Part shown: positions 144-11,349 of the stretch, in pieces
How the letters are laid out: each line of letters starts with the position of its first letter
Position numbering within the stretch: position 1 is the first letter of the stretch
Assembly (NCBI GenBank): GCA_023807065.1
Contig: JAJJLU010004597.1
Location: 1-11,349 of the forward strand
Length of the DNA: 11,349 nucleotides
Reading direction: 5' to 3'
DNA from: Isotricha intestinalis
Taxonomy: Eukaryota > Ciliophora > Litostomatea > Vestibuliferida > Isotrichidae
Made by a program: the position numbers and the translations under genes
The notes under the pieces: model-generated
Told to the model about the DNA's origin: nothing
Databases searched by the model: none
What the model saw: the letters and a program-made list of their open reading frames with translations, nothing else

Positions 144-389
144 GAAAATATAATATAAATAAAATATAGTGTGTAAAATATTAATATAAATAAAATATAG
201 TATGTAAAATATTAATATAAATAAAATATAGGCAGTAAAATATTAATATAAATAAAATATAGATAGTAAAATATTAATATAAATAAAATATAGAGAGTAA
301 AATATTAATATAAATAAAATATAGAGAGTAAAATATTAATATAAATAAAATATAGGAAGTAAAATATTAATATAAATAAAATATAGTCA
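144..389 (+). repeat. Array 1: perfect 31-bp tandem repeat of 28-nt GT...AG intron-like blocks with variable 3-nt spacers
   Basis: Seven consecutive 28-nt blocks are identical: 173-200, 204-231, 235-262, 266-293, 297-324, 328-355 and 359-386. Each begins GTAAAATATTAATAT and ends AAATATAG, so it has canonical GT and AG intron ends and an internal ATATTAATAT palindrome. The 3 nt before, between and after the blocks are TGT, TAT, GCA, ATA, AGA, AGA, GAA and TCA. Substitutions are absent from 196 block bases and concentrated in the triplets. A degenerate eighth block without a GT start (144-169) opens the array. Read as codons the triplets give C, Y, A, I, R, R, E, S with no stop. Whether the blocks are ever spliced cannot be seen from DNA. 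A very young minisatellite is the simpler alternative, but it would not explain why only the triplets vary. Confidence 0.9.
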
Positions 390-572
390 TGTTTTTTGTT
401 TTAATGTTTTTCATAAATCATTTTTTATCATTTTATTTTTATTTTCATTTTTTTTTATTATTTTAAAAACAATGGATTTTATATTTTAAATTTTTGTTTT
501 TTTTTTGATTTCCTTTTTTACCTAAAATTTCTAATAAATAAAATATAATAATAATAATATCTCTCTATTATT
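390..572. other. Gene-free A/T-rich spacer after array 1
   Basis: The stretch is mostly T-rich runs (390-530) followed by an AATAAATAAAATATAATAAT segment near 532-560 that resembles the tail of the array blocks. It lies directly downstream of the stop of the minus-strand remnant at 573-754, so part of it may be that gene's 3' flank. I see no open frame, RNA gene or structured element here. Confidence 0.4.
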
Positions 573-920: not shown

Positions 921-2040
921 GTAAATGTTAAATATAATAATAATAAATAAATAGAGGATAAAATTAATTAATTAATAAACAAATAGAATGTAAAATATTA
1001 ATAATAAATAAATAGAGGGTTAAATAGATTATTAAATAAATAGAGAGTAAAATAGATTATTAATAGATAAACAGAGGGTTAAATATATAATTAAATAAAT
1101 AGAGTGTAAAATAGATTACTAATAGATCAATAGGAAGTAAAATATATTAATAATAAAATAGAGGGTAAAATAAATTAAATAATAAATAAATAGAGGGTAA
1201 AATAAATTAAATAATAAATAAATAGAGCTTAAAATATATTAAATAATAAATAATTAGAGCGTAAAATATATTAAGAATAAATAAATAGAGCTTAAAATAA
1301 ATTAAATAATAAATAAATAGAGCTTAAAATAAATTAAATAATAAATAAATAGAGTTTAAAATATATTAAATAATAAATAATTAGAGCGTAAAATATATTA
1401 AGAATAAATAAATAGAGCGTAATAAATTTTAATAATAAATAATTAGAATGTAAAAGATATTCTAAATAAATAGAACATAAAAAATATTAATAATGAATAA
1501 ATAGATAGTAAATATCATTAATAATAAATAAATAGTGGGTAAAAAGATTTAAATAATAAAAAATTAGAATGTAAATATATTAATAATTAGTAAATAGAGG
1601 GTAAAATATTAAAATATAAATATATAGAGTGTAAAATATATTAAGAATAAATTAATAGAGCATAAAATATATTAATAATAAATAAATAGATCTTAAAATA
1701 TAATAATAATAAATAGATTGTAAAATTATTATTAATCAATAAAAAGAGGGTAAAATATATTAATAATAAATAATAGAGGGTAAAATATATTAAAAATAAA
1801 TTAATAGAGCGTAAAATTTATTAATAAAAATAAATAGATTGTAAAATATAATAATAATTAATAAATAGAGCGTAAAATATACAATAATAAATAAATAGAG
1901 CGTAAAATAGATTAATAATAAAAAAATAGAGGGTAAAATATATATAAACATAAATAAATAGAGGGTAAAATACATAAATAAAAATAAATAGAAGGTAAAA
2001 TATATTAATAATAAATAAATAGAGCGTAAAATAGTAATAA
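921..2040 (+). repeat. Array 2: about 36 diverged intron-like blocks, each separated by exactly 3 nt
   Basis: After a leading 34-nt block (921-954) the sequence parses into 35 complete blocks of 24-29 nt (most often 28) up to 2022, plus a truncated one from 2026. The consensus begins GTAAAATATATTAATAATAA and ends AAATAG. All 35 end in AG; 27 begin with GT, five with TT (1229, 1292, 1324, 1356, 1693) and three with AT (958, 1477, 1662). Every inter-block spacer is 3 nt. The 36 triplets are mainly AGC (11), AGG (10) and AGT (3), with AAT, AAC, ATA, ATC, ATT, AAG, AGA, GAA and TGG making up the rest, and none is a stop. Block ends, length and spacer match array 1, but blocks have drifted here and the triplets are biased to AGN. 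Local duplication is visible (about 1200-1291 versus 1327-1418). It is a minisatellite by structure; its intron-like nature is inference. Confidence 0.88.
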
Positions 2041-2192
2041 ATAAATAATTTTTAAATTTATTATTATTTTTATTCCATAAAATTATACTTTTATTATCAG
2101 AAATCAATAATATATATAAATAAAATCCTAAAAATAATAATTAAAAACATGGCTAACTAGAAGAAGGACAATTCAATACAATAAATGATAAT
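2041..2192. other. Transition from array 2 to the Lys/Glu/Asn-rich frame
   Basis: The last block donor (GTAAAATAG at 2026) has no close partner AG. The nearest good acceptor is TTATTATCAG ending at 2100, which would make a roughly 75-nt intron. A CTAAC immediately followed by TAG lies at 2154-2161. No intact start codon with a lasting frame is present. Confidence 0.3.
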
Positions 2193-3242
2193 ATGTTAGA
2201 AAAAAATTCCAAGCGTCCCGTCTCAAACAATATAGTGATCTGTGAAAATGAATTAGAAAAATAAAATAAAAAATGATAAAAATATTAAAGGAATTGAAAA
2301 TAATTTAGAAAATTAAAATAATCTTGAAAATGATAAAAAACAAATTAAAGAATATAATTTAGAGGATGAAAAAAAATAATTAGAAAATGAAGAAGAAAAT
2401 AAGGAAAAAGAATTAAAGAATAAAGAAAATAAAATAAAAAATGAAGACTTTAAATGAAATATGTTAAAAAGTAATGAAAAAATAATAAATAAGAAAAAAG
2501 AGAAGATATTTTAGATAATAAATATGAATAAATTGGAAATAAAATAACTGAAAAAGAAGAAAATAAAAATCTTTTAGAGTCAAATAAAGTAATTGAAAAA
2601 AAAGATGATATAAAAAATAGCAATGAAATATATTTATTAAATAAAAAAATAAAAGATAAAAAAGAAAGAGAAGAAAATGAAAATAAAAAAACAAATCAAC
2701 AAATTCCTAATTTAAATAAAGAAACAAAAATAATAGAAAATAAACTTGATAATCAAATAAATAATGATAATAAATATAATAAGAATGAAGAAGACAAGAA
2801 ATTATTGGATAAAAAAATAAAAATAAAAGAAAAAGGAGATAACAAAAATAAATTAGAAAATATAAAAGAAAATAAAAGCATGATAGAAGAAATAAAAAGT
2901 AATAATTTAAAGAAAAATATTAAAAATGAAGAAAAAGAAATTATTAAGGATGAAATAAAAGAAATAAAAAACAATAAATACAATAAGTATGATAATAATA
3001 TAAATAATAAAAACACTGAAAATGAAATAATAAATCAATTGAAAGAAAAAGAAATTAAAGAAAAAGATAATAAAGAAAACAAGAAAAAAAAAAGCCAAAA
3101 AAAATAACAACAAAATAGAGAACAAAAAGAAATTAATGATGAAATTAAAGAAATAAAAAAAGAAGAAAATAAAAATAATAAAAATGAAAATAAGAAATTA
3201 ATACAATTTGAAACTATGAATGTGAGAAATACGGTAAAATAA
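2193..3242 (+). pseudogene. Lys/Glu/Asn-rich coiled-coil-like gene, broken by stops and frame changes
   Basis: An ATG at 2193 opens MLEKNSKRPVSNNI, which uses C- and G-bearing codons unlike its surroundings. The frame then needs a shift or the 22-nt GT...AG segment at 2235-2256 removed. Removing it gives a continuous Lys/Asn/Glu frame broken by TAA at 2314-2316 and 2377-2379 and TGA at 2455-2457. A second frame carries TAA at 2490-2492 and 2529-2531, then stays open for 191 codons (2532-3104), stops at TAA 3105-3107, and resumes for 44 codons to TAA at 3240-3242. The protein would be a highly charged coiled coil with no recognisable domain. Several TAA codons sit where neighbouring text would favour Gln (for example before CAA CAA at 3108-3113), as expected from C-to-T decay of CAA. 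The intact neighbours use CAA for Gln, which argues against a reassigned code. The strand is strongly purine-rich, which itself lengthens open frames. Confidence 0.45.
2235..2256 (+). other. Candidate 22-nt micro-intron
   Basis: The segment starts GTGATC and ends ATTAG, lies at phase 0, and its removal joins the MLEKNSKRPVSNNI reading frame to the following Lys/Asn-rich frame. It is shorter than the 29-nt intron proven at 9672-9700 and lies in a gene that is otherwise broken, so chance is a real possibility. Confidence 0.25.
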
Positions 3243-9596: not shown

Positions 9597-11349
9597 ATGT
9601 CAAATGCTCCAGATTATACTTTAAACGAGCAAATTTATCAAAATTCTGATAAAACAATAAGAATATATAAAGTAATATATATTTATTTAGTAAATAATAG
9701 ACTAGAAAATATGGGACAATAAGATATATAGCAGTAAAAGCATATTATAAAAAATATCATAAAGAGCGTTATAATTATGAATATTCTTTAGTTCATAATA
9801 TAAATAATCCAGGTGTAGTAAACATAAAATCATTTAGTGAAGACCACAATTATTTCTTAATGGAAATGGAATTCTGTGCAACAGGAGATTTATCAAAATG
9901 TCTTTGGCAAAATAAGAATAATTTTTACGGTGAAAGAACAATAAAAATGATAAGTTGCCAATTATTACAAGGATTACAAGCTCTTCATAAAAATGGTATA
10001 ATTCATTGCAATTTAAAACCAAGTAATATATTAATTGATGAATATGGAAATGTTAAAATATGTGATTTTAAAAAATCATTAAAAGTTGCTACAATGAATA
10101 TGAAAGACATTAAAAAAAATAAAACTGCAATGACACCTTGTTATACAGCACCTGAATTATTTCAAGAAGATGGAAAATATTCTTTTAAAAGTGATTTATG
10201 GGCTTTAGGTTGTATAATGTATGAATTAGCTGTTGGTCAAGTTCCTTTTTTTGACGAAAATATTGCTAAATTAATTAATAAAATAATAAATGATGATGTC
10301 GATTTTAATAAAAAAGAATTAACTAAATATTCAGATGAATTTGTTCAAATATTAAAAAGATTATTAGTTAAAGAACCTAATAATAGAGTAACTTGGGGAG
10401 AAATTGAAAGATTTGATTGGTGGGAAGGAGCATTATTTGATTCTAATGTTAATAATCCTCAAAGTGGAAAAAGTGATAATAACAATAAAGGAATTGATGC
10501 TTTAAGATTAAGTAGAATTGTAAGAAATAATTTAGACAAAGAAAACTATACTAATGTTAAAAAAAATGAAATTGATAATACTGATCAAGAATTTGATTTT
10601 CAGGATAAAGAAACTGATGATGAAGACTTAGTTCAACCTGAAAAAATTAATATATCAATATCAAAATTTCCTATGAATGTTTCTGTGTTAAATATTAGTA
10701 AAGTTTTTAAAAAAGATAAAAGAACTTATAATGATATAAATGCTGAATTAATTCAAAGTTCTAATGATGATATGCCTAAAATTGAAAATTTCTTTATTCA
10801 TCCTAATGATAGAGTTATTAAACCTATTATAGGAAATAAATTAATTGAAGATACTCCAATTACAACTTTTAATAAATCTAAATTACCTTTTGTTCCTTGG
10901 AAAAAAGATGTTTTGAAAGATATGATGAATTCACCAAATGATGTTAAAACAGTGGAACAATATTTATATAGAATTTATACTGATTTAGATGCTCATGCAA
11001 GTAAAAATGATTTTGATAATTTATTAAATTTGCTTAGATATTTTGAAACTATTGTTTTTGATAGAGAATTAGCAAATAATTTAATTAATACAAGTTTTAT
11101 TCAACAATTTATTCAATTTTTAAAGAATTTAAATAATGAAGATGTTAAAACAAGATGTTGTTGTATTATAGGATATCTTGTAAGATATGCTACAATAATT
11201 GAAGTTCCTTTAGATAATTATAATTTTGGTGATATAATATGTAATACTATAAGAGGAACAAATAATAATTCAGATTTAATGAAAAAAGCAACTGCTACTT
11301 TAGGAGAGTATTTATTTTATGTTGCAACTCAAGAAGAAACTCCTGATAA
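9597..11349 (+). CDS. ULK4: ULK4/RUNKEL-type pseudokinase, 3' end beyond the window
   Basis: Exon 1 (9597-9671, 25 codons) joins exon 2 (9701 onward) after a 29-nt intron; 574 residues are visible and the frame is still open at the edge. The kinase-like domain (about 8-266) has a Gly-poor P-loop, VAIK-type Lys38 in YIAVKAY, HCNLKPSN at 127-134 where HRD is expected (catalytic Asp replaced by Asn129), DFK at 147-149 in place of DFG, APE at 175-177 and SDLWALG at 189-195. The family call rests on IYKTRKYGTIRYIAVK at the N-lobe, on FVPWKKD-like linker text, and above all on LGEYLFYVATQEE near the edge, which matches LGELIYLVATQEE in animal ULK4. ULK4 is a large pseudokinase with C-terminal armadillo/HEAT repeats, linked to microtubules and ciliary function; helical repeats begin after about 460. 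Residues 270-400 are a disordered acidic linker. About half of the protein is probably missing. Confidence 0.9.
9672..9700 (+). other. 29-nt spliceosomal intron of the ULK4-like gene
   Basis: The unspliced frame hits TAA at 9720-9722. Removing GTAATATATATTT...AATAATAG, a 29-nt segment at phase 0, joins IYK to TRKYGTIRYIAVKA, restoring the conserved N-lobe (compare VYKGRRKGTINFVA in animal ULK4). An internal AG at 9690 would leave a stop, so the 9700 acceptor is required. The intron is pure A/T apart from its ends and one internal G. Its size and ends are the same as those of the array blocks at 144-389 and 921-2040. Confidence 0.88.

Follow-up and report, generated by a model that had tools for sequence, protein, structure and literature searches.

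The window, that is, the whole stretch of 11,349 nucleotides that was analysed, is contig C2033 of a eukaryotic genome of 57.3 Mb and 2153 contigs. It contains two arrays of short blocks spaced by triplets, together with ordinary-looking genes encoding an RRM protein, ribosomal protein uL15 (Pfam Ribosomal_L27A), a CS-domain protein, and a ULK4-like kinase. One protein of the window gave a sub-threshold match to Sin1/CRIM, and the window genes apparently use the standard genetic code. The features on which the analysis is based are the following.

144..169, plus strand: eighth, decayed unit upstream of array 1, GAAAATATAATATAAATAAAATATAG, read directly from the sequence

170-172 (TGT), 201-203 (TAT), 232-234 (GCA), 263-265 (ATA), plus strand: putative one-codon exons of array 1, first part, C Y A I

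294-296 (AGA), 325-327 (AGA), 356-358 (GAA), 387-389 (TCA), plus strand: putative one-codon exons of array 1, second part, R R E S

173-200, 204-231, 235-262, 266-293, 297-324, 328-355, 359-386, plus strand: putative micro-introns of array 1, which form a chain with 3-nt exons in both decoders

387..404, plus strand: possible last exon of array 1, TCA TGT TTT TTG TTT TAA (S C F L F stop), read from the window sequence alone

927-2022, plus strand: array 2, a diverged sister array with 36 putative micro-introns (about 24-34 nt) and 35 three-nt exons

9672..9700, plus strand: ordinary 29-nt phase-0 intron, GTAA...TAG, of the ULK4-like kinase gene (start codon 9597)

Array 1 consists of seven 28-nt copies of GTAAAATATTAATATAAATAAAATATAG with 0 mismatches among them (window 173-386), as the original prediction had stated, and 0 such copies were expected by chance in 200 shuffles. 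The triplets that it had listed, TAT, GCA, ATA, AGA, AGA, and GAA between the blocks with TGT before and TCA after them, were confirmed as well. In the decayed unit, the donor GT is lost and two single bases are deleted relative to the 28-nt block, and an AT donor was the sole call made there by both decoders. The possible last exon at 387..404 received no support from relatives. Array 2 follows the same AG-NNN-GTAA grammar as array 1 with more varied bodies, and AGNNNGTAA is present in 38 copies in the window against 3.9 expected, 33 of the 38 being located inside arrays 1 and 2. Downstream, the region at 2150-3237 is K/E/N-rich and of low complexity with broken open frames, and has the appearance of a coding repeat that has decayed; next to the C661 array (L026, about 1900-2740) there is a similar region with a 39-bp repeat.

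The intron of the kinase gene provides a reference for the array blocks. When the kinase protein was joined over 9672-9700, its alignment with human ULK4 ran through the junction, and both the size and the borders of this intron are the same as those of the array blocks. Because of this one example of a 29-nt GTAA...TAG intron, introns of array-block size and form appear to be normal in this genome. The 18S gene on the rDNA contig (G000:C1, L056) is ciliate-like and short, about 1.6-1.7 kb as read by eye, which fits litostomes. Entodinium caudatum, Muniziella cunhai, and Balantidium ctenopharyngodoni are trichostome ciliates. The repeat (CCCCAAT)n, which is given as the telomere repeat of these three species in the available text of PMC6211341, PMC11316547, and PMC10978948, was found beside an array at four of the 21 contig ends checked (C661, C546, C715, and C1044, short in C1044). 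These telomeres and the standard code, which is also that of Muniziella in the text available (PMC11316547), fit a trichostome ciliate. The same text gives the introns of Muniziella as about 100 bp long and 0.62 per gene, a size that does not match the micro-introns here, and does not report micro-introns.

The grammar of the two arrays recurs throughout the genome. The array-1 search of its own genome returned 79 matches, the window's own included, and three TAG-NNN-GTAA anchors returned 215 + 215 matches against 2 + 2 for the reversed pattern. The original prediction had proposed looking for blocks of the array-1 type at 3-nt spacing elsewhere in the genome. The array-1 sequence itself turned out to be unique, as the 35-base pattern made of the block and the preceding ATAGNNN had no further genome match with up to 3 mismatches, whereas the 3-nt grammar was found elsewhere. 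The decoded set comprised 32 stretches on 30 contigs, picked among the matches listed for the array-1 search and the anchor pattern. With exon length scored flat, 1004 of the 1071 exons in these stretches were 3 nt long, and no chain was decoded on their opposite strand. Both decoders require AG acceptors and favour GT donors, so that splice-site tallies are partly built in, while the counts of the AG-N3-GTRA pattern are free of that bias. In 27 stretches, this pattern occurred 774 times against 188 occurrences at all other spacings from 0 to 15 together (75 of them at spacing 1) and a single occurrence on the opposite strand. The non-array control, 117 kb of neighbouring sequence, contained two chains with at least five 3-nt exons (6 and 5), the second of which adjoins the C912 array and probably continues it. 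Twenty shuffles each of C231, C546, C94, and C1044 gave at most 9, compared with 86, 69, 39, and 80 for the real sequences. The two decoders disagree in places, the second joining longer introns or skipping units, and in the output of the first some exons are irregular and stops occur (two in C231; frame shifts in C1925, C661, C538, and C1364b). Counting of C-terminal exons by an 18-base pattern was abandoned as too unspecific, with 1710 matches against 295 in the control.

The array introns were mostly 20-36 nt in length, about 27 nt, with a range of 16-59 nt within the decoder's limits. Their consensus is GTAA...TAG, and these GT...AG ends, which follow the genome's own consensus, are those of U2-type spliceosomal introns. 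The donor was GT in 1137 of the 1230 introns and AT, TT, or CT in the remaining 93 (71, 21, and 1, respectively). Introns starting with AT often begin with ATAAG and are possibly AT-AG introns. The bodies between the borders can be entirely unlike one another. Among the introns between two 3-nt exons, all were distinct in C231 (82 of 82) and C546 (66 of 66), and every intron was different also in C1044 (79), C912 (47), C18 (36), and C94 (35). In these six arrays, the 3-nt exons and one open frame were kept despite the unlike bodies, and a tandem repeat is ruled out as the cause because all bodies differ yet the exons stay 3 nt. According to the original prediction, variation spread along the whole unit, together with a lack of spliced transcripts, would speak for a plain minisatellite. 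Array 2, with its varied bodies, shows such variation in part; genome-wide, the AG/NNN/GT borders and the 3-nt length are kept while the intron bodies vary freely.

The joined triplets behave as an open reading frame. In 22 stretches, 1 stop was found in 915 phase-0 triplets, against 113.4 expected from the position-specific base frequencies of the triplets (P 6e-48). Excluded from this count were the window arrays 1 and 2, C174, and seven stretches that were not clean or whose best frame was another one (C1592, C1893, C94, C589, C439, C1606, and C1149). The single stop is exon 65 of 66 in C1364b and is perhaps the true gene end. In the output of the first decoder, runs of at least fifteen 3-nt exons in which frame 0 was the most open (794 codons, the window arrays and C174 excluded) contained 1 stop in frame 0, 50 and 119 in the other two forward frames, and 44, 33, and 32 in the reverse frames. 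Codon usage correlated with that of the window's ordinary genes at 0.835 in frame 0, against 0.60 and 0.48 in the other frames, and GC3 was 0.09 in both the arrays and those genes. Since the reading frame was selected for each stretch as the most open one, the cleanest test is given by four genes in which the frame is fixed by an alike start exon of 12 nt, ATG-GGA-A(A/T)T-AA(A/G), encoding M-G-I/N-K. Over 178 codons, these genes had no stop in the frame fixed by that exon, and 6 and 31 stops in the other two. The rule of the nearest upstream ATG, applied to 14 stretches, counts against the reading, as the frame that it predicts had 31 stops and the other two had 24 and 67, but is given low weight because several of these ATGs are not starts or sit at the edge of a contig or of the fetched sequence.

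The intron phase was constant along a gene, being 0 in most stretches and 2 in some, and nearly all stretches had one open frame. The phase-2 frame had 0 stops in C1592 (49 exons), C1893 (91), C94 (42), C589 (25), C1606 (21), and C1149 (11), and C1592 was stop-free in two non-0 frames. C174 had at least one stop in each frame and was open in none, and C439, with at least three stops in every frame, is mixed and not clean. Shuffling of the exon order in the stretches read in another frame did not discriminate. AAG accounted for 1 of the 125 AAA and AAG codons in the arrays against 19 of 218 in the ordinary genes (p 0.0015), a rarity that is expected because AAG would offer an extra AG acceptor. 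GAG was not avoided (5/142 in the arrays against 6/144 in the ordinary genes), and the avoidance of GTA was marginal (0/16 against 14/71, p 0.06).

The decoded proteins are related across loci. Family A is represented by ten loci (C231, C826, C1008, C18, C1452, C1618, C912, C1925, C661, and C1364a) with the N-terminal pattern GxKCxxCxYxFYxGEExP, aligned in rows that are hand composites of the two decoders. Its members have a variable middle, and CPxCG is found near the end in several of them and in C1705. The codon borders of family A coincide at the same residues across loci, and introns at the same residue resembled one another no more than random pairs do (10.1 against 9.6, sd 3.3, nine introns). 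Conserved codons combined with unlike introns and identical cutting would be difficult to account for if the cutting were not old and the joined codons not under selection. Outside family A, the decoded C546 protein starts with ATG GCA TCA AAT, reads MASN EMQPSRRLFYYKILRD..., and has a lysine-rich end, and the decoded C1893 protein (90 codons) reads VKKTDQSGEELNKLMKEREELEKKNETVRKELEKLKKALAELARSTESAERKRRLSEKLIARKFSLSEEEKNVKKRLAELKAQIDERIDA and is coiled-coil-like. No homologue of the C546 protein, the C1364b protein, or the family A alignment was found in the protein database. Pfam searches with ten decoded proteins gave sub-threshold matches only (zinc-ribbon, coiled-coil, and similar), and the LRR family was absent among the matches shown for them. 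A tblastn search of the own genome with one decoded protein did not find an intronless copy, the best E value of 0.43 being that of a chance match.

Several structural details were observed at individual loci. Family A seems to close with an ordinary short last exon with KEA(H/Y)... and a stop, observed 3' of the array in C231, C826, and C538 and preceded by a 6-nt exon in C538 and C231. C1592 (L044), C94 (L050), and C589 (L053) perhaps represent a second family, read in the phase-2 frame and ending in C-x-x-C, after which a similar ATAT(A/G)AATTT stretch follows. The decoded proteins of C1616 (L041) and C439 (L051) contain CxxC and a strongly hydrophobic, membrane-like stretch.

The arrays are very probably protein-coding genes, or remnants of such genes, in which nearly every codon would form its own 3-nt exon between spliceosomal micro-introns. 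One-codon exons between micro-introns had been offered as a reading of array 1 by the original prediction, and this reading is strongly supported genome-wide. It is the most likely one because of the 3-nt exons, the open frames, the gene-like codon usage, and the homologous, identically cut proteins, to which the kinase intron can be added. In such genes, the spliceosome would recognise every tiny intron by pairing its two ends, the mode known as intron definition, and join the codons into an open reading frame, a spliced-RNA step that we infer from the sequence. Exons of 3 nt flanked by introns of about 27 nt leave hardly any room for exon definition, so that each intron would be recognised by its own ends.

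Arrays 1 and 2 have their grammar and their location near a contig end in common with the genome-wide set, and we infer that array 1 is a short or decaying member of these one-codon-exon genes. The putative peptide of array 1, C-Y-A-I-R-R-E-S, is graded as plausible because the array has 7-8 codons, which is too short for a stop-codon test by itself, its first unit is damaged, and no family motif can be recognised in it. Arrays 1 and 2 could be fragments of such genes that have decayed and lost their expression, and we regard this as a serious possibility while leaning slightly against it. The first unit of array 1 lacks a donor, neither array has the family motif or a secure start codon, and non-GT donors amount to 8 of 36 in array 2 (28 GT, 3 AT, and 5 TT) against 93 of 1230 in the whole decoded set. 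The seven identical introns of array 1, however, look recent, and frame 0 of array 2 reads RNRRRSERRSSSSSSSNNIWNRSSIIRRSISSRRK, with no stop over 35 codons. Since frame 1 of array 2 is also stop-free, its coding is left ambiguous.

Excision of short DNA segments occurs in ciliates, and small bypassed elements have been described in other systems. The triplets could be coding while the 20-36-nt blocks are removed as internal eliminated sequences (IES) by DNA excision during macronuclear development, or skipped by ribosomal bypassing, and the joined frame would be equally open at whichever level the removal takes place. We consider this very unlikely, since the block ends are GTAA...TAG like those of the kinase intron rather than TA repeats, and TA-bounded excision would, by reasoning, leave a remnant of 7 nt in each unit, which would disrupt the frame. 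In addition, the blocks are present on four telomere-capped contigs, which with telomere repeats beside the blocks look like finished macronuclear chromosomes still carrying them, and the rarity of AAG is in line with acceptor competition, although GAG is not depleted.

The anchor pattern was also found in 16 stretches of viral contigs and 81 stretches of prokaryote contigs (80 of the 81 with locus ids). These contained 24 chains of at least 8 introns, the longest with 13; most of the chains repeat one to three triplets and a few are varied. That the arrays are non-coding minisatellites whose unit contains AG-NNN-GTAA by chance is hardly credible: tandem, AT-rich arrays are frequent, array 2 has a periodicity of about 31 bp with scattered changes, the bacterial and viral chains look minisatellite-like, and array 1 alone could pass for copies of one unit with variation over the unit, but the arrays as a whole do not have this form, no intron is repeated in C231, C546, C94, C912, C1044, and C18, stop codons are nearly absent, and the decoded proteins are alike across loci, so that a plain minisatellite was rejected for the family as far as sequence goes.

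The introns suggest a mosaic history. One 27-nt intron was letter-identical in 6 arrays on 6 contigs, and 16 intron sequences were common to at least two arrays; exact introns were common even to arrays with seemingly unrelated proteins such as C1083 and C1364b. The arrays thus have the mark of introners, namely near-identical introns recurring from gene to gene. Concerning the proposal of the original prediction that an introner was inserted repeatedly at 3-nt steps, the exact introns common to arrays agree with it, and the insertion itself is putative. The introns are distributed unevenly along the proteins: in the conserved N-terminal part they are unlike one another, the intron directly after the conserved proline is 28 nt in 7 of the 10 family A members, and near-identical 28-nt introns begin about there in C1925, C826, and C661 and fill the variable middle. 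Letter-identical intron pairs within one array were followed by a different codon in 385 of 446 cases, so simple duplication of intron-plus-codon units is insufficient. Such unit duplication also occurs, as in C570. Concerted exchange between introns together with selection on codons would presumably account for these patterns. The C570 stretch at about 17286-17722 on the minus strand is an array with a three-unit higher-order repeat in which the codons repeat E-L-F and the intron types alternate.

The arrays were concentrated near contig ends. On 27 of the 30 contigs, the array lay within 3 kb of the contig end, against 9.5 expected, and without the 10 arrays running into the contig end the count was 17 of 20, against 6.3 expected; coordinates were compiled by hand with one array per contig, omitting the second C1364 array (about 4.9-7.0 kb from the end). 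This bias is partly due to assembly breaks; four of the ends nevertheless carry telomere repeats. Unequal exchange or conversion between identical introns would add, remove, or swap whole codons in frame, and the protein middle would diversify through this in-frame codon exchange. It is conceivable, though rather doubtful in our view, that these observations reflect codon-by-codon exon shuffling, in which a subtelomeric family holds its codons between homogenised introner-like micro-introns, swaps of codons are frame-safe, and the protein middle diversifies between conserved zinc-knuckle-like ends.

If true, 70-90 successive one-codon exons would represent an extreme intron density, and dozens of splicing events would be required to make one small protein. 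Such genes would put intron-definition splicing directly to the test where usable exons are lacking, would be a natural laboratory for intron gain, and may escape gene finders and read aligners. Because the introns are diverged in the conserved ends but near-identical in the variable middle, the multiplication of introns becomes directly testable.

No description of genes made of successive one-codon exons was found by title and abstract, a search in which most subscription papers were outside the scope. In the literature surveyed, as far as its available text goes, exons as short as 1-3 nt occur only in isolation. Such exons, of 1 nt or 3 nt, are described in Arabidopsis (PMC4674806) and Drosophila (PMC7392893), which indicates that spliceosomes can use exons of such size; in the accessible parts of these sources they are single exons and not dozens. 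The micro-exon genes of schistosomes, in the portion available of PMC10526429, have exons of mixed length from 3 to 81 bp and introns of up to 5 kbp. They resemble the arrays in their very short exons, down to 3 bp, but the mixed exon lengths and long introns are not found here, where there is one codon per exon between micro-introns. Spliceosomal introns of about 20-33 nt are described for Nyctotherus and Paramecium (PMC2633312) and for Stentor (PMC9505925), and those of Nyctotherus have GTA...TAG ends like the array introns. In the text available from these two sources, such introns apparently stand singly in ordinary genes rather than in runs at every codon. Introners are likewise near-identical introns at many sites in different genes (PMC9860276, in the part available). 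The array introns differ from them in being mostly 20-36 nt long and packed 3 nt apart, and since the words "tandem" and "phase" do not occur in the text of that paper, it probably does not describe introners that follow one another codon by codon. The closest resemblance in organization is to the 90-bp-exon LRR genes of Tetrahymena, which, in the accessible text of PMC6564038, form tandem arrays of exons that all have the same exact length and a strong bias in intron phase. The youngest of them are concentrated in subtelomeric and pericentromeric regions, and the arrays are attributed there to exon shuffling and unequal crossing over. One exact exon length, a constant intron phase, and a location near chromosome ends were also found here. 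The exons here are, however, not 90-bp LRR exons: whereas those of Tetrahymena copy a protein repeat, in the present arrays the 3-nt exons carry different codons, and it is the introns that are repeated.
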